DNA of 42,752 bases. Origin: Acetatifactor sp. (lineage in GTDB: Bacteria; Bacillota; Clostridia; Lachnospirales; Lachnospiraceae). How positions within the stretch are numbered: the stretch's first letter is position 1; every line of letters begins with the position of its first letter. The translations under genes were made by a program, and so were the position numbers. Location: positions 1-42,752 of the forward strand of contig JAHBAA010000041.1 of NCBI GenBank assembly GCA_018385425.1, in the 5' to 3' direction. Positions 13,801 through 42,706 of the stretch are shown piece by piece. The notes below the pieces were generated by a model. The model was not told where the DNA came from. It saw nothing but the letters and a program-made list of their open reading frames with translations, and did no database searches.

Positions 13801-14784
13801 TCACTCCCATTCAATCGTTGCGACGGGCTTGGGAGACAGGTCGTAGAGTACGCGGTTGATGCCGGGTACTTCGGCCAGAATACGATCTGTGATCTTGCCA
13901 AGAAGTGCGTAGGGAATCTCTTCGATGGTAGCGCTGGTAGCATCCACAGAGTTGACTGCACGGATGATTGCGGGCCACTCGAAGGTACGCTTGTTATTCT
14001 TGATGCCGGTGGACTTATAATCGGGCACTACGGTAAAGTACTGCCATACCTTGCCTTCCAGTCCGGCATTTGCGAATTCTTCGCGAAGGATCGCATCTGA
14101 CTCGCGGAGCGCTTCCAGTCTGTCACGAGTGATGGCACCGGTGCAGCGAACGCCAAGTCCGGGACCGGGGAAGGGCTGGCGATATACCATTCCGTCCGGA
14201 AGACCAAGAGCCTTTCCTACCACACGCACCTCATCCTTATAGAGGAATTTCACAGGCTCCACCAGTTCAAACTGCAGATCCTCAGGCAGACCTCCCACAT
14301 TATGGTGTGCCTTTACGCCGTCACTCTCCAGGATATCAGGATAAATGGTTCCCTGTGCCAGAAACTCAATGCCGTCCAGCTTCTTTGCCTCGTCGGCAAA
14401 CACCTCGATAAACTCCTTGCCGATGATCTTTCTCTTGGTCTCAGGGTCGGAAACGCCGGCCAGCTTGTCCAGGAAACGGTCGATGGCATCCACATAGATC
14501 AGGTTTGCATCCATCTGGTTGCGGAATACTTCTACGACTTGCTCGGGCTCACCCTTTCGAAGCAGACCGTGGTTCACATGGACACATACCAGCTGTTTGC
14601 CGATGGCCTTGATCAGAAGTGCTGCTACTACAGAAGAGTCCACTCCGCCGGACAGTGCCAGCAGTACCTTCTTGTCACCGATCTGGCTGCGAAGAGCTGC
14701 GACCTGCTCTGCAATAAAGCTTTCGGCAAGTGCAGGGGTGGTGATACGTTCCATGGTTTCGGGACGCTTATTGTTTTCCATCAT
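13801..14784 (-). CDS. guaA: GMP synthase ATP-pyrophosphatase subunit (no glutaminase domain)
   Basis: A 327-residue protein equal to the second and third parts of GMP synthase: the ATP-pyrophosphatase domain with the PP-loop LSGGVDSSVV (about residues 45-54), and the dimerisation domain with PFPGPGLGVR and the C-terminal KPVATIEWE that contacts XMP. The glutamine amidotransferase domain of about 200 residues that normally precedes it is absent, and no such gene lies upstream. It would turn XMP into GMP using ammonia or a separate glutaminase subunit, as in two-subunit archaeal enzymes. AAGGAGGAATC precedes two adjacent ATGs; either could start. Confidence 0.88.
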   Translation of the reverse strand: MMENNKRPETMERITTPALAESFIAEQVAALRSQIGDKKVLLALSGGVDSSVVAALLIKAIGKQLVCVHVNHGLLRKGEPEQVVEVFRNQMDANLIYVDAIDRFLDKLAGVSDPETKRKIIGKEFIEVFADEAKKLDGIEFLAQGTIYPDILESDGVKAHHNVGGLPEDLQFELVEPVKFLYKDEVRVVGKALGLPDGMVYRQPFPGPGLGVRCTGAITRDRLEALRESDAILREEFANAGLEGKVWQYFTVVPDYKSTGIKNNKRTFEWPAIIRAVNSVDATSATIEEIPYALLGKITDRILAEVPGINRVLYDLSPKPVATIEWE

Positions 14785-30123: not shown

Positions 30124-30831
30124 CTACTCTTCCCCATACAGCAGTGTGAAGGACTCATAATGATCCTCGGTATAATAGATCAGACCGTCGTTGGAATAGA
30201 CGATGCGTTTCGTTCCACGCTTCTTAGCCCCAAGGGTATCAATATCGCACTCATAATAAGTGCGTCCCTTCTTGACCGGCAACAGCTTCTCATAATTACC
30301 GAAGCGATCTCCGCCGATACACATCCCCGGTGCATATTCCTCCAGAGAACCGCCGGTCCACCCCAGTTTTTCCGCCTCCTTCTTCGTGATGAAGTTTTCC
30401 GGTAGATCATTGTAGGTGTGCAGATACTCTGCCACATCCTCTTTGCTGGTATAGGTTCCGTACTCGTCCAGATGGGCGCCCGGACCGGCAGGATCGTTTA
30501 AGTCACCGGTGGAAGGCTTGCTCTCATCCGAAGCATCCGCGGATCGATCCGTTTCCTCTGTCTCAGAGAAAAACTCCTCGGGCAGATCCTCGAAGCTTTC
30601 CTCTAAAGTCTCATCCGAATCCTCCAGCCAAAAGTCCGATTCTGCCGAAGACTCCGAAGAATCGGGGTTCACAATGCTCTCGGACTCCGGATCCGATTTT
30701 GCGGAGCTGTTCTCAGACAGCACAATGGTGATGAACTGGTCCACCTCTTCTTCCGTACAGCCTGTCAGAAGAAACACAGAGAGCATACCGAGCAATATTG
30801 TCAACCTTATCTTATCAAACCATTTTTTCAT
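30124..30831 (-). CDS. Lipoprotein with a C-terminal barnase-type ribonuclease domain
   Basis: A 235-residue precursor. A type II signal peptide ends in the lipobox LLTGC (Cys25), so the protein is lipid-anchored outside the membrane. A Ser/Glu/Asp-rich linker (about 40-125) carries a microbial RNase domain (about 130-233) closely like Bacillus barnase: YLHTYNDLPENFITKKEAEKLGW, IGGDRFGN, ECDI, RIVYSNDGLIYYTEDHYESFT. Catalytic residues are Lys150, Glu194, Arg205, Arg209 and His224. Barnase Arg59 is Tyr180 here. No barstar-like gene is in the window, which fits an enzyme active only outside the cell. Likely roles are RNA scavenging or competition. Confidence 0.87.
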   Translation of the reverse strand: MKKWFDKIRLTILLGMLSVFLLTGCTEEEVDQFITIVLSENSSAKSDPESESIVNPDSSESSAESDFWLEDSDETLEESFEDLPEEFFSETEETDRSADASDESKPSTGDLNDPAGPGAHLDEYGTYTSKEDVAEYLHTYNDLPENFITKKEAEKLGWTGGSLEEYAPGMCIGGDRFGNYEKLLPVKKGRTYYECDIDTLGAKKRGTKRIVYSNDGLIYYTEDHYESFTLLYGEE

Positions 30832-37040: not shown

Positions 37041-40000
37041 TCATTCGTTCGTGACAAGCGCCTTTCTCCTACGTTTGTCTCTGATCTTCTTTATCGCTTT
37101 CCGAATCAGCAGGCACAAACACAAACCGGCGATCACAGAGGCACCGATCACCAACACTTCTATTCTACTATGATCCTCTACAATTGTCACCCGGAAAATG
37201 CCCGGTTTTTCCATGGAGAACTGCTGATATCTGCCGATCGTCTCACAATCCACCGTTCTCCACTGTTCCTCGGCGTATACCTCGATCAGAGAATGCTCCG
37301 GATCTTCCAACTGCAGACGGACTTTCACAGGATCCTCATAGTGTCCCGTCTCATGACCTTCCTCGTCCAGATAGACGATCTCCAGCGTCCTCTCCGCTCC
37401 GTGCTCTGTCATTCGAAGATCTGCACCCGGCAGAAACTGGCCCTGCACCAGGACAAGGGGTCTGCCATCCTCATCCGTGTTTTCGCCGGCAATGGAGGAG
37501 ATCCAGGGAATATACTCCGCCTCCAGAATACGATTTCCTCGGATGAAGCCGTAATCGAATTGGGGCCAGGCGCCGAAATATCCCTCCTTCTCGGGAATCG
37601 TGGGTATCATGCTCTGCTCCAGACTGTCCCCGTATTTGCAGGAATAAGAAGCCAGTTCCTCCCCATCCGCAAGAAAGCATACGGTAAAGCTTGTAAACCC
37701 TTCCGGCAGCTCGTATTGACTGCACAATTCCTCATACTCCATGGGGGTCGCACCCCCCTCATAACCGATGGAATCTACACCCGGCAAACCACCCTGAACA
37801 TACAGATTCCCGGCGATCATGCCATCCTCCGAGAGTTGTCCGGCGATGGAACCGCCTCTCTCCCCGGTTATTTCCAACGTAGGATATGCCACGGAAGAGA
37901 AGATATCACAGCCTTTCCCAACGATACCGCCAACGTTGTTCTTGCCGCTTAAGTCCCCCAAAAAGCAGCAGCTTCTCACCGTGTATCCGGAGAGTCCAAC
38001 AATTCCGCCCACATAGCTTCCGCCGGTACTTTTTACTCCTCCGAAGCTTTCGCATTCGATCACGGCGCCGTGGTCTGCCTTACCCACGATTCCACCCACA
38101 TAGTCCTTTTTGGCAGTGATCTCGCCCTGATTACGGCATTCCCTGACCACAGCCTTCACCGTCTGCTCTATGTTGAAGCTTTCCTCCCCGGTCAGCTCAA
38201 TGTCATCCTCCGGATCAAAATCCAGTTCTGTGGAGATCTGCCCAACAATACCTCCCACATTGGTATCGGCCTGAATGACTCCCCGGTTTACACATAGCGT
38301 GATCTTCCCCTTTTGAAACGAGGAAATATCATAATATGCCTCCTCCTTCTGGGTATCCGGATTGCCGAGTTCCTCGGTCTGTGCATCTTCCGACATTTCC
38401 TCATCCGATGCGTCTTCTACTGAGATTCCCTCGTACCGAAACAGATCGTCCCGCAATTCACTGATGGACTTGCGAAGCACTCTGGCCTGATTGACGAGAG
38501 CATCCCGATTTTTCTCTCCCTGCTCTACTCCCTGCTCCAGCACTGCTGCCAGCTGCTCCAATTCGCTGCCGGCTGCCTCCATCCGATCGTTCAGCGTGTT
38601 CAGGTTCTCCGTGATGACTCCGCTCCTGTCTGTGGATGCCTGCCCCATATTGGCAAGATGGTCCCCGGTACTATCCGCGAACCGGCGAAGGGCTGCCCGA
38701 TAGCTCTCCATATCGTTCGGAACGGTAATGGTGATCTCCCCCTCTTCTCCTTCACCGATCACATGATCCGTAGTATTTCCTTCTTCCCGGTCCTGGGTAT
38801 CCTGCTCCTCCAACTCTTGATTCAGACGATCCAGATCATTTCCGATCCCGGTCAATTCCTGATTGTAAATGTACCACAGTTCATTTGCCACAGAAGACAG
38901 TCTGCCTGCCGCAGCAGATGCCTCCTTCAGATTGGTGCTGAGACTCTTCGCCAAATCGGAGGCCTGCTTCCCTGTACGGTGCAGTTCCTCCCCGGACTGC
39001 TCCACCAGATCCAGAAATTTTTCCGTCTCCCGATCGATCTCCTTCAGCTTGTCATCCAGATACTGAATCTCCAGAAAAGGTTCCATCTGACCTGCAATAC
39101 CACCCACATCCTTTCGGCCGAAGACCGCTCCGCTGTTGGTACAATTCTGCAGATATCCCTGATGCAGTCTTCCCACGATTCCGCCGGTATTGTAGCCCAC
39201 ATGCTGATAACCAACGGTTCCGCTGTTGCTGCAATAGTAGATCTTGCCATCGGAATACCCGGCGATTCCACCGGTGTCCGTGTGGGCCGCCATGTTTTCC
39301 GCGCTGTTGAATGACTCGACATTTTCAGCCGTGATATCCTCGATATGATAGGGCACCTCCATGCTGTAAGCATTCACCTTTCCGTAATTGATGCAATTGT
39401 TCAGCGTACCGCTGTTTTTTCCACAGATGCCGCCCACATAATGCTCCCCGTTTACAGTTGCTTTGGAACTGCACCGCCTGATCTCCCCGGCAGCCTCATT
39501 GCTGCCGACGATACCGCCTACCGCTTCCTTTCCCACAATACTGCCCGCGACGAAACAATTTGTGATCTTACCGTAGTTCACGCCTGCCAGCATCCCTACA
39601 TTGCACTGACTTCCCTCGGGACACACAGAACCTGACAACACCAGATTTCTCACCACTGCCCCCTGTTGCAGGTAACGGAATAAGCCAATGGCAGACCCTG
39701 TCTCATCCAGGCGAAGCCCGTTGATGGCGTGCCCGCAGCCGTCAAAGATACCTCCAAAGGTAGGGATCATCAGCTCGGTGCCCTCCGAGAGGAAAATGTC
39801 CCGATCCAACACAACATATTTATCCACAGACCAGGAATCCAGGGCACAGTTTTCTGCCAATTCCAACAGATCTGCCTCACTTCGGATCGAGATCTGAATG
39901 AGATTCTCTGCCTCTGATGCTTCCTCTGTCCGTACTTCTCCTGCCAGATACTCCCGGTAGGTTTTTTCCTCGGAAGCCGCCTGCACCGGCACCCGGTGAA

Positions 40001-40064
40001 AACCGGACAGTACCACACAGAGCCATACAGCCATTCCCCTTATCGCCCGTTTCCTATTCTTCAT
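37041..40064 (-). CDS. Large GLUG-repeat, coiled-coil, membrane-anchored surface protein
   Basis: A 1007-residue exported protein. A signal peptide ends near VQA-AS (residue 30). GLUG-type repeats with the GGIVG signature form a likely beta-solenoid in two parts: about 150-325 (signatures near 183, 211, 265, 294, 321) and 595-745 (604, 657, 686, 712, 738). A long coiled coil (about 330-550) with an acidic loop splits them. A beta-rich region follows, then one membrane helix (about 969-987) and a basic tail. Its ATG overlaps the MMPL transporter stop by four bases, which suggests a shared complex, perhaps as an extracellular scaffold or conduit. Function unknown. Confidence 0.82.
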   Translation of the reverse strand: MKNRKRAIRGMAVWLCVVLSGFHRVPVQAASEEKTYREYLAGEVRTEEASEAENLIQISIRSEADLLELAENCALDSWSVDKYVVLDRDIFLSEGTELMIPTFGGIFDGCGHAINGLRLDETGSAIGLFRYLQQGAVVRNLVLSGSVCPEGSQCNVGMLAGVNYGKITNCFVAGSIVGKEAVGGIVGSNEAAGEIRRCSSKATVNGEHYVGGICGKNSGTLNNCINYGKVNAYSMEVPYHIEDITAENVESFNSAENMAAHTDTGGIAGYSDGKIYYCSNSGTVGYQHVGYNTGGIVGRLHQGYLQNCTNSGAVFGRKDVGGIAGQMEPFLEIQYLDDKLKEIDRETEKFLDLVEQSGEELHRTGKQASDLAKSLSTNLKEASAAAGRLSSVANELWYIYNQELTGIGNDLDRLNQELEEQDTQDREEGNTTDHVIGEGEEGEITITVPNDMESYRAALRRFADSTGDHLANMGQASTDRSGVITENLNTLNDRMEAAGSELEQLAAVLEQGVEQGEKNRDALVNQARVLRKSISELRDDLFRYEGISVEDASDEEMSEDAQTEELGNPDTQKEEAYYDISSFQKGKITLCVNRGVIQADTNVGGIVGQISTELDFDPEDDIELTGEESFNIEQTVKAVVRECRNQGEITAKKDYVGGIVGKADHGAVIECESFGGVKSTGGSYVGGIVGLSGYTVRSCCFLGDLSGKNNVGGIVGKGCDIFSSVAYPTLEITGERGGSIAGQLSEDGMIAGNLYVQGGLPGVDSIGYEGGATPMEYEELCSQYELPEGFTSFTVCFLADGEELASYSCKYGDSLEQSMIPTIPEKEGYFGAWPQFDYGFIRGNRILEAEYIPWISSIAGENTDEDGRPLVLVQGQFLPGADLRMTEHGAERTLEIVYLDEEGHETGHYEDPVKVRLQLEDPEHSLIEVYAEEQWRTVDCETIGRYQQFSMEKPGIFRVTIVEDHSRIEVLVIGASVIAGLCLCLLIRKAIKKIRDKRRRKALVTNE

Positions 40065-42589
40065 GCTTTCCTGCCTCCTTCCTCATCACCTTCTTGGATT
40101 TCCCGAGGGTTCGGTTCGATGTCCTGCTGTTCCTGTTCGGAAGCAGTTGGCGTCAGTTCCGCATCCCGAGTGTATTGACTATCTAAGTCAACATTCTCCA
40201 CAGTATCCTTCGCGCGAACCACAGCACCCATCTCACCCTCAATCACACCGATGAACTCACCGTCCACCACACCATTCACATACCCCTTGATCCTTCCGTT
40301 CATGCGGATCCTTCCGCCGGCGGGCAATGGCTTCACCATCTCACGCTTCAGCGTGAACGCTGTCTTCTCAATGATGATATCTCCAACCAACAACGTCTGC
40401 GGCAGCACCAACAGCACCAATGCAATGGATGTCAAGGTTCCTCTGCCCAGCGCAAGCCCGATGGCTGCCACCACAGCGTTGGAGGAAATATTGCTGATGA
40501 TGAAACCTGCCGCCACCAGCATGGAACCGCTGGTCACGATCGTGGGAAATGCCTGATTCAAGGTCTCCACAATGGCCTGTCGGATAGGCAGATAAGTCTT
40601 TATTTCCATATAGCGGCTGGTGATGACGATGGCATAGTCGATAGTTGCTCCCATCTGGATCGCAGATACCACCAGATAGCCCAGGAAATAAACCGATTCT
40701 CCGGTCAGGTAAGGCAGGGAGAAGTTCATCCAGATGCTTCCCTGAATGGTCAGTACCAACAGCACCGGAAGCCCGGCAGACTGGAAGGTAAACAGCAGAA
40801 TGATCATGACAAACAACGCCGTCAACACCGTAATGATGGTATTGTCGATGCCAAAGGATGCGCTTAAGTCCTTGTTGCTGGTCGCATTGCCCGCCAGCAC
40901 GATGGAATCCTCCTCATAATACCCGGCCACCGTGTCCCGGATCCGCTGAAGCGCTGCATAGGTCTCCTCCCCCTCTGTAGGGACAGAAAGCTCCAGGACG
41001 AAACGACTGTACTCCTCCCCCAGAAGCTGATCCCTTGCGATGCTGATCTGGGAGTAGGCATCCGTCAGCTTCTCCTCCAGTTCAGCGTCCAGTGTAATAT
41101 TGCCCGCTTCCTTCTGATCATAGATAAACAAAAACATATCGATCAAGGGCACCTTGTATTCATCCACACCGCTTAACAGGGCGCCATAGTTGCTGTTGTC
41201 CACCGCATAGGCGGAATAGAGCAGTTCTGCCACCTCAATATCCAGATCGATCAGCTCGGAGAACTCTCTGGGAGACAGCTGCTCGGTCAGCATATACCCA
41301 TCCATCGCCTCGATATTCGCAAGCCCCATACAGGAGTTCACCTCCGGCATTCTCTCCAGAGCGCGCAGCACTGCTGCCTCCTTTTCATAATCTCCTCTGG
41401 GCACCATTACCGCCAGCTGATTGATTGTTCCAAATTCCCTGTTGACCATGGACGCCGAAAACTTATTGTCACTCATGATCTTCGATTCCAGAGAATTCAC
41501 ATCATACACATAGTTGGTCTTACCGGAGATCCATGCTGCCCCAATGACCGCCGCAACCAGCAACGGCGGAACGATAAACCTTGTATGCACGCAGAATTTA
41601 CCCACGGCAGTGATCTTCGGCACGAAGCTTCTGTGGTGAGACTTGTCGATCGCCCGGGCAAAGGTCAGCAACAGACCCGGCATCAAAAAGAATACGGATA
41701 CCAGGCTTAAGAGGATCGCCTTCGCCAGCACGATACCCATGTCATAACCGATCCGAAACTGCATGAACATCATGGCGATCATACCGGAAACAGTGGTCAG
41801 TGAGCTGGAAGAGATCTCCGGAATTGCTTTGCTCAGTGCCACGATCACCGCCTCTCTGGCATCCTTGTCCTCATGCTCCTCCATAAATCGATGACAGAGA
41901 ATGATGGCGTAATCCACAGCCAGCGCCAGCTGCAGTACCACAGCGATCGAATCGGTGACAAAGCTGATGGTACCGAAGATAAAGTTGCTGCCCTTGTTCA
42001 GAATCGCCGCCACAATGAAAGTTGCCAGATACACCGGTATCTCCGCGTAGGTAGTGGAAGTAAACAGCAATACCGCCACGATGACCACTGCTGCCAGCAG
42101 CAAAATGATGATCATATCATGATTTAAGTCGGAAGCGTCCCGCTCCTCCTGACCAATATCGGAGGAATAATAGACATCATACTTTTCCAGCTCTGCCAGC
42201 ACATTGCTTAAATATTCCTGCGCGACAGCATCCTTGGCTTCCGCCTGAAAGGTAATATCGTACAATGCCTCCATATCGTGATAATGCTCCTCGGAATCGT
42301 CAAAGGAAAGCATACTGACACCCTCCAGCCCCTCCAGCCGTTTGGATATCAGCTGTGCCTCCTCCTTCGTCACGTTGCACACCATCACCCGGGCAGTACC
42401 ATATGTGGTAAACTGCTCCTCCATCAGATCCAACCCCTGCCTGGTCTCCGTCGTCTCCGGCAGATAGGAGGTCAGGTCATTGTTCACTTTCACCTTATTC
42501 ATATAGATCACACTGAAAATGATCAGAACGATAAATATGAGATAGAACCCCTTTCTCTTGTCTACGATCAACGTAGACAGCTTGATCAT
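40061..42589 (-). CDS. MMPL/RND-superfamily transporter
   Basis: An 842-residue transporter with the MmpL layout: one helix, an extracytoplasmic domain, five helices, then the same again. Asp-Tyr pairs for proton relay are present in helix 4 (LALAVDYAII) and helix 10 (MGATIDYAIV), as in MmpL3. The C-terminal tail of about 90 residues is acidic and cytoplasmic. Relatives export lipids, siderophores or peptides. The frame opens at 42619, but ATG 42589 (MIKLSTL) has AGGAGG at ideal spacing and is chosen. It heads an operon with the GLUG-repeat protein. Confidence 0.9.
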   Translation of the reverse strand: MIKLSTLIVDKRKGFYLIFIVLIIFSVIYMNKVKVNNDLTSYLPETTETRQGLDLMEEQFTTYGTARVMVCNVTKEEAQLISKRLEGLEGVSMLSFDDSEEHYHDMEALYDITFQAEAKDAVAQEYLSNVLAELEKYDVYYSSDIGQEERDASDLNHDMIIILLLAAVVIVAVLLFTSTTYAEIPVYLATFIVAAILNKGSNFIFGTISFVTDSIAVVLQLALAVDYAIILCHRFMEEHEDKDAREAVIVALSKAIPEISSSSLTTVSGMIAMMFMQFRIGYDMGIVLAKAILLSLVSVFFLMPGLLLTFARAIDKSHHRSFVPKITAVGKFCVHTRFIVPPLLVAAVIGAAWISGKTNYVYDVNSLESKIMSDNKFSASMVNREFGTINQLAVMVPRGDYEKEAAVLRALERMPEVNSCMGLANIEAMDGYMLTEQLSPREFSELIDLDIEVAELLYSAYAVDNSNYGALLSGVDEYKVPLIDMFLFIYDQKEAGNITLDAELEEKLTDAYSQISIARDQLLGEEYSRFVLELSVPTEGEETYAALQRIRDTVAGYYEEDSIVLAGNATSNKDLSASFGIDNTIITVLTALFVMIILLFTFQSAGLPVLLVLTIQGSIWMNFSLPYLTGESVYFLGYLVVSAIQMGATIDYAIVITSRYMEIKTYLPIRQAIVETLNQAFPTIVTSGSMLVAAGFIISNISSNAVVAAIGLALGRGTLTSIALVLLVLPQTLLVGDIIIEKTAFTLKREMVKPLPAGGRIRMNGRIKGYVNGVVDGEFIGVIEGEMGAVVRAKDTVENVDLDSQYTRDAELTPTASEQEQQDIEPNPREIQEGDEEGGRKA

Positions 42590-42706
42590 AAAAGACTCCT
42601 CCTTCCTCTCCTGTGCCATACTAATCTGTCCTCCGTCTTTAGACTCTTGTTGTTTATTGTAGAATCGTCATTTATTGAACAACTGTTGATTTTTAGAATA
42701 AATGTA

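Follow-up and report, generated by a model that had tools for sequence, protein, structure and literature searches.

A dedicated GLUG beta-helix/coiled-coil surface partner of a clostridial MMPL pump

In the window, a whole 42,752-nt contig from a 2.47 Mb assembly of Acetatifactor sp., the gene for an MMPL/RND pump overlaps that for a GLUG beta-helix/coiled-coil surface protein. The second protein is a dedicated, repeatedly associated partner of the first: it accompanies 60 of 64 pumps of the subfamily in 397 family-level genomes, and is adjacent to the pump in 77, and fused to it in two, of the best 80 of at least 557 loci found with the pump alone. We hold it moderately likely that the two form an obligate two-part RND export system, in which the partner would supply a coiled-coil arm in trans, with its beta-helix docking on the pump.

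An RND pump with a dedicated partner is a known kind of system; the GLUG/coil partner is new to it, and a clostridial surface partner of an MMPL pump is apparently undescribed. A literature search, with most subscription journals outside its reach, found no published account of the MMPL-GLUG pair and no work pairing 'MMPL family transporter' with Lachnospiraceae. Judged by their titles, the matches listed from the wider pump literature concern mycobacterial, Gram-negative or general efflux, and the 'GLUG motif' literature found is archaeal. Gram-positive RND/MMPL pumps are poorly understood, and in gut Clostridia the pair offers a case that is compact, widespread and open to experiment.

The gene pair in the window

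Both genes lie on the minus strand. The pump gene (40061..42589, minus strand; 842 aa, alternative start at 42619) and the surface-protein gene (37041..40064, minus strand; 1007 aa; PF07581, E 1.7e-14; AF2 model) share an ATGA stop/start overlap at 40061..40064 (minus strand), read from the sequence, and an AGGAGG-like ribosome-binding sequence for the surface-protein gene sits inside the end of the pump gene. The preliminary description, of a four-base overlap joining an MMPL pump with Asp-Tyr pairs to a 1007-residue protein, is confirmed by the sequence, Pfam and the pump alignment. Since the window is the whole contig, its boundary lies 133 bases upstream of the pump's outer start codon. 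The nearest named relatives, by pump scan and tree, are Lachnospiraceae such as Acetatifactor muris. Among 77 unfused named loci the four-base overlap is possible in 20, and a start codon in the GLUG frame falls at -10 to +30 from the pump stop in 65.

Elsewhere in the window, a 327-aa ORF (13801-14784) matches only the C-terminal part of GMP synthase and an NAD synthase-like domain, with no amidotransferase match, and a 235-aa protein (30124-30831) has a C-terminal microbial ribonuclease domain (PF00545).

Association of pump and partner across genomes

Pump and partner were each searched against 397 family-level genomes. The pump subfamily is set off by score: 64 matches in 62 genomes lie between 366 and 1807 bits, and the next MMPL match is at 289. 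A GLUG match follows within 3 kb downstream, on the same strand, in 60 of these 64; the other four all run into contig ends, one of them (G358) after the first part of a GLUG gene. Beside the other MMPL matches entered from the same genomes a GLUG partner was found in 0 of 50, a comparison drawn from 114 pump and 76 GLUG rows after omission of the weakest rows and of any further piece of a protein already counted; one of the 50 (G114:C41) is probably a subfamily pump truncated at a contig edge. Chance or local adjacency was rejected because of this difference between the 64 and the 50.

Species genomes of GTDB were also scanned with the pump alignment alone, and the best 80 of at least 557 loci were kept. 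The partner is adjacent in 77 and fused in two (L086, L088), while in the remaining locus the sequence stops at a contig edge 80 bases past the pump. A contig end cuts the GLUG gene in seven of the 77, and in one (L097) only a 159-aa remnant is present; a long apparent ORF overlap between the neighbours occurs in 8/80 loci. Named hosts include Acetatifactor muris, Eisenbergiella porci, Oscillibacter valericigenes, Flavonifractor, Anaerotignum lactatifermentans, Oceanirhabdus and a Vallitalea MAG. The preliminary description would have fallen had the two families shown no repeated association in other genomes; the neighbourhood survey was run against it on that point, and the refutation failed.

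At class level the GLUG profile has a match at 1e-20 in 96 of 391 genomes, many of them partial and to other GLUG proteins, and a match below 1e-100 in 43 of 391, from 14 families. At phylum level 7 of 398 genomes matched at 1e-40: that of the window, one of its family and five non-Clostridia. Of the class-level loci retrieved because of a GLUG match, 22/22 have the pump adjacent or fused; outside the class, the partner adjoins the pump, or as much of it as the contig contains, in 5/5 loci. Loci of this kind (a set of 40, 20 plus two, L204 and L205, at class level, and five outside the class) were picked by GLUG matches and so are not a test of association. In these samples the pair is common in Clostridia and rare outside.

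Several loci depart from the simple arrangement. One pump gene is flanked by two GLUG/coil genes on the same strand (L069:4993-13957). Decayed copies of pump and GLUG genes, two in one genome, are each split into several ORFs (L200, L201). A faecal record labelled Bacteriophage sp. (MT836298.1, L235) carries the gene pair and is probably bacterial DNA.

Architecture of the surface protein

The protein is predicted to be one continuous beta-helix with an inserted coiled-coil hairpin, followed by beta domains and a membrane helix (all coordinates on the minus strand). A signal peptide with a VQA-AS site was read from the sequence (residues 1-29, 39978..40064), and the N terminus is hydrophobic in 108/110 partner sequences. 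The N-terminal half of the beta-helix (residues 56-335, 39060..39899) and its C-terminal half (residues 587-775, 37740..38306) stack on each other in the AF2 model, as PDB alignments agree. Between them stands the hairpin (residues 336-542, with the insert extending up to 586; 38439..39059), modelled as helices at a pLDDT of about 56-78, so that its pose is uncertain. The C-terminal beta domains (residues 790-961, 37182..37697; pLDDT 83-95) lead to the C-terminal membrane helix and basic tail (residues 966-1004, 37053..37169). Two GLUG half-solenoids split by a coiled coil had been proposed; the coil insert stands, but the two solenoids give way to the single beta-helix, which bears the GLUG repeats that make this a GLUG protein. 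The one C-terminal helix, proposed earlier to hold the protein, is seen in the model. A C-terminal hydrophobic segment is found in 98/110 partners, the other 12 falling below the membrane-helix threshold; 9/110 have a mid-protein hydrophobic stretch.

Database searches place the beta-helix and little else. NCBIfam models gave no match to the GLUG protein at E 0.001, nor did Foldseek by itself for its model at E 0.001. A second PDB comparison, which covered model residues 56-775 and barely tested the C-terminal beta domains, gave the beta-helix of IgA1 protease as the best structural match; no metalloprotease (M26) domain was matched by Pfam at E 0.1 across the 1007 aa. An adaptor fold is absent from the 50-row PDB comparison, which is weak outside residues 56-775, and an adaptor family is absent from the Pfam and NCBIfam matches.

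Heptad periodicity has a z over 3 in the coil of 110/110 partners. The coil ranges from 144 to 768 aa, an approximately fivefold spread, at a mean identity of 17%, unlike the beta-helix, whose length is nearly constant. So unconserved a sequence would be odd for a selective channel, and this counts against a conduit. It would suit a factor resembling MmpS, which would set the oligomeric state or stability of the pump while the coil, as a spacer or self-association device, carried no cargo; MmpS5, an operon partner with one membrane helix, is described in PMC12501195 as bridging protomers and being required for efflux. However, the clostridial partner is about seven times MmpS5 (about 15 kDa), its coil is kept in every sequence, and a mere clamp needs no arm of this length, which makes an assembly role unlikely in our judgement; we keep to the two-part export system. 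One GLUG relative (L189:7041-9797) has no pump in the 16 kb fetched and only about 68 residues in place of the coil, a loss that fits a coil serving the pump in this single case.

An arm of variable length, with a single membrane helix and a short basic tail, could also belong to a sensor or receptor that spans the wall and gates the pump in response to a signal from outside, and is no cargo route. Long coiled-coil surface proteins such as YueB/Pip are phage receptors. However, the tail is short and the partner's Pfam matches include no signalling domain; we give a sensor very little credence beside the export system.

The pump and its alpha subdomain

The pump matches the MMPL family (PF03176, E 5e-35) in two stretches, corresponding to the two domains of that family. 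Its Asp-Tyr pairs, D226-Y227 (41909..41914, minus strand) and D651-Y652 (40634..40639, minus strand), are invariant in 41 aligned pumps; we take them to be the proton-relay motif of RND proteins. The nearest solved structures to the AF2 model (pLDDT 79) are MmpL5/MmpS5 (8zkp) and MmpL4 (9syj).

The second extracellular domain contains an alpha subdomain (residues 426-519; 41033..41314, minus strand), the candidate docking site of the partner. All 28 GLUG-type pumps have it, with 87-88 of 88 alignment positions filled. Among 22 sister pumps, 21 fill none of the 88 positions and one fills 17, and a loop of 12-20 residues replaces the subdomain in 21. The 94 residues lack heptad periodicity (z 0.96), and the pump has no long insert there. 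Since the subdomain tracks the type of partner, it is the first place to seek the contact between the two proteins.

At the other end of the pump, the C-terminal cytoplasmic tail is predicted by the AF2 model and the alignment to form a glycine-spaced beta-hairpin (residues 755-790, window 40220-40327). Its G765, G769, G773 and G785 are invariant in 41 pump rows, and the hairpin is apparently missing from shorter pumps of about 763-779 aa.

Co-evolution and gene fusion

On the pump tree all 28 rows with a GLUG partner form one group (SH-aLRT 100). An adjoining group of 24 pumps (SH-aLRT 99) has a different coiled-coil protein beside 22 of its members. Pump and beta-helix distances correlate at r 0.84, against 0.09 for the best of 500 permutations, in a mirror-tree comparison of 110 pairs whose genes are complete, including 40 from loci picked by GLUG matches; part of this correlation comes from the common ancestry of the hosts.

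Fused genes occur in two settings. In one other clostridial family four genomes have fused ORFs that are complete, at 1912-2003 aa, and another has one cut by the contig end (L167-L171); two Lachnospiraceae MAGs have fused ORFs of 2024 and 2036 aa. The fused rows require two origins on the pump tree. In both kinds a hydrophobic stretch with an A-x-A end lies between the parts, where signal peptidase may cut the product. With this putative cleavage site kept, fusion is no proof of a lasting covalent link, and in our reading of these sequences a fusion that is cut would fix the stoichiometry of synthesis instead. The natural fusions point to the partner and to 1:1 synthesis, and the pump subdomain predicts the contact.

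Translational overlap alone can hold genes together, so that the two might be merely co-regulated, inherited as an operon with no physical interaction. Against this stand an association that is almost complete across 14 families of the class and extends outside it, the two origins of fusion and the difference in the pump subdomain, and we regard a bare operon as very improbable.

Other clostridial MMPL pumps

We compared 31 further clostridial MMPL pumps, selected from those found in the family-level search. A non-GLUG coil is supplied in trans beside 22 (20 downstream, two upstream) and in cis in two; three have long repeat-type inserts, and neither was found for four (L195, L196, L215, L216). 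Coil in cis had been a candidate in five of the 31, but with the first residue set this was not borne out (z -0.6 to 1.6). With a stricter set, L192 and the first L193 pump show a heptad-like period of 3.5 (z 7.4 and 12.1), and the inserts of L190, L191 and L194 are unclear as coils (z 3.5, 2.4 and 0.7). The last three are pumps of 1271-1372 aa whose second outer domain holds an insert of about 430-660 residues; by eye and by weak profile matches, these inserts resemble tandem copies of the alpha subdomain that is single in GLUG-type pumps.

The proteins beside the 22 pumps form an unnamed coiled-coil surface family (alignment A6; L193, L197-L199, L206-L214, L217-L225), whose ORFs often overlap those of the pumps. 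Like the GLUG partner, they have a hydrophobic N-terminal signal, an N domain without heptads, a coil with heptad periodicity (z 5.1-16.5 in 20/20 tested) and a C domain, and stand beside the pump; unlike the GLUG case, their pumps are without the alpha subdomain. The two partner profiles match only near the signal peptide (probability 95, columns 20-116, the signal peptide and what follows), which was not taken as kinship. A PDB sequence search with the GLUG and other-coil profiles gave almost only myosin, SMC and dynactin coils among the best 60 of 267 and of 425 matches; these are generic coiled coils, and the search is therefore silent on kinship.

One of four A6-type partners scanned with NCBIfam has the LxxG heptad repeats of TIGR03057. 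Kinship with YhgE/Pip was rejected, there being no YhgE/Pip model, such as those of the terminal domains, among the NCBIfam matches of the GLUG protein or these four partners. The earlier suggestion that coiled coils of YhgE/Pip type stand beside other MMPL genes thus holds for the coils, beside 22 of the 31 pumps, but not, in the proteins scanned with NCBIfam, for the type.

Neighbouring genes and cargo

Among 40 loci, no gene cluster beyond the pair is common to more than 10, and there is no recurrent biosynthesis gene. The clearest recurrent neighbour is a TetR-type regulator, recurrent and not universal: among 57 upstream genes of relatives, chosen from 112, a TetR_C_8 match was found in 27. 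Together, the regulator and the lack of a recurring cluster weakly favour regulated export of a stress compound over that of a dedicated biosynthetic product. By analogy with FarE, for which we know of no GLUG/coil partner, our guess is that the cargo may be stress compounds of a hydrophobic or amphiphilic kind, fatty acids for example.

The same neighbourhoods bear on whether the pump delivers a lipid or glycolipid to a partner that is itself an adhesin or receptor, the pair building a modified surface structure. The best match of the beta-helix comes from IgA1 protease, which is secreted or lies at the cell surface, and this agrees with such a role. However, conserved biosynthesis genes are missing nearby in the 40 loci, an LPxTG-like anchor is found in 0/110 partner sequences, and the outer domain of the pump itself varies with the kind of partner. 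An adhesin, as first suggested, is without direct support and seems to us quite improbable.

Proposed mechanism

In the two-part export system that we prefer, the MMPL pump would sit in the cell membrane and the partner, exported by Sec, would be held there by its one C-terminal membrane helix. The rigid beta-helix, of near-fixed length, would bear the antiparallel coiled-coil hairpin pointing outwards and would dock on the pump's outward second domain, at the alpha subdomain, present in one full copy. Hairpins of an oligomer, probably a trimer, would then form an arm or tube that leads amphiphilic cargo off the membrane and into the wall or across it, as has been proposed for the coil that MmpL4/5/10 carry in cis. 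Here the pump-partner contact, docking site, oligomer and conduit are what we infer from the models and comparisons above.

A bolder reading, possible though somewhat doubtful, is that of a new class of RND adaptor that works without an outer membrane: the beta-helix clamp would give a coiled-coil tube of adjustable length in trans, and the pump's cargo would pass through the wall. On that reading each clostridial MMPL type would bring its own outer extension, be it a GLUG-borne coil, another coil in trans, a coil in cis or a repeated alpha subdomain, and the tube proposed for mycobacterial MmpL pumps could come from a second protein.

Comparison with known systems

The closest counterparts are the HAE-2 RND pumps MmpL4, MmpL5 and MmpL10 with MmpS, which share the pump fold, a long outer coiled-coil arm and a single-helix operon partner. 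According to PMC12501195, the 196-residue coiled coil in the second periplasmic domain of MmpL5 is needed for efflux and was modelled as a tube of 13 nm; biochemical and EM data on MmpL10 in PMC12183618 suggest that the coil drives trimer formation. The coil is in the pump there and in the partner here, whose pump lacks one; MmpS has about 15 kDa with an Ig-like domain, whereas the clostridial partner has 1007 aa with a beta-helix; and mycobacteria have a mycomembrane, while these Clostridia have none.

FarE/FarR of S. aureus is alike in placing an MMPL-type pump beside a TetR regulator, and FarE exports fatty acids according to PMC10019231. IgA1 protease shares the GLUG motif and beta-helix fold; the partner differs in its coiled-coil insertion, its membrane helix and the lack of a protease domain among the matches found.

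Periplasmic adaptors (membrane fusion proteins) of RND and ABC pumps, of the HlyD/AcrA kind, likewise have an outward alpha-hairpin of varying length spliced into a beta domain, as described in PMC4446572, which also remarks that very large Gram-positive adaptor hairpins are hard to rationalise as mere bridges. In the clostridial partner a GLUG beta-helix would take the place of the lipoyl and barrel domains, and there is a single C-terminal membrane helix. We claim no kinship with these adaptors; the likeness is in the way of working.
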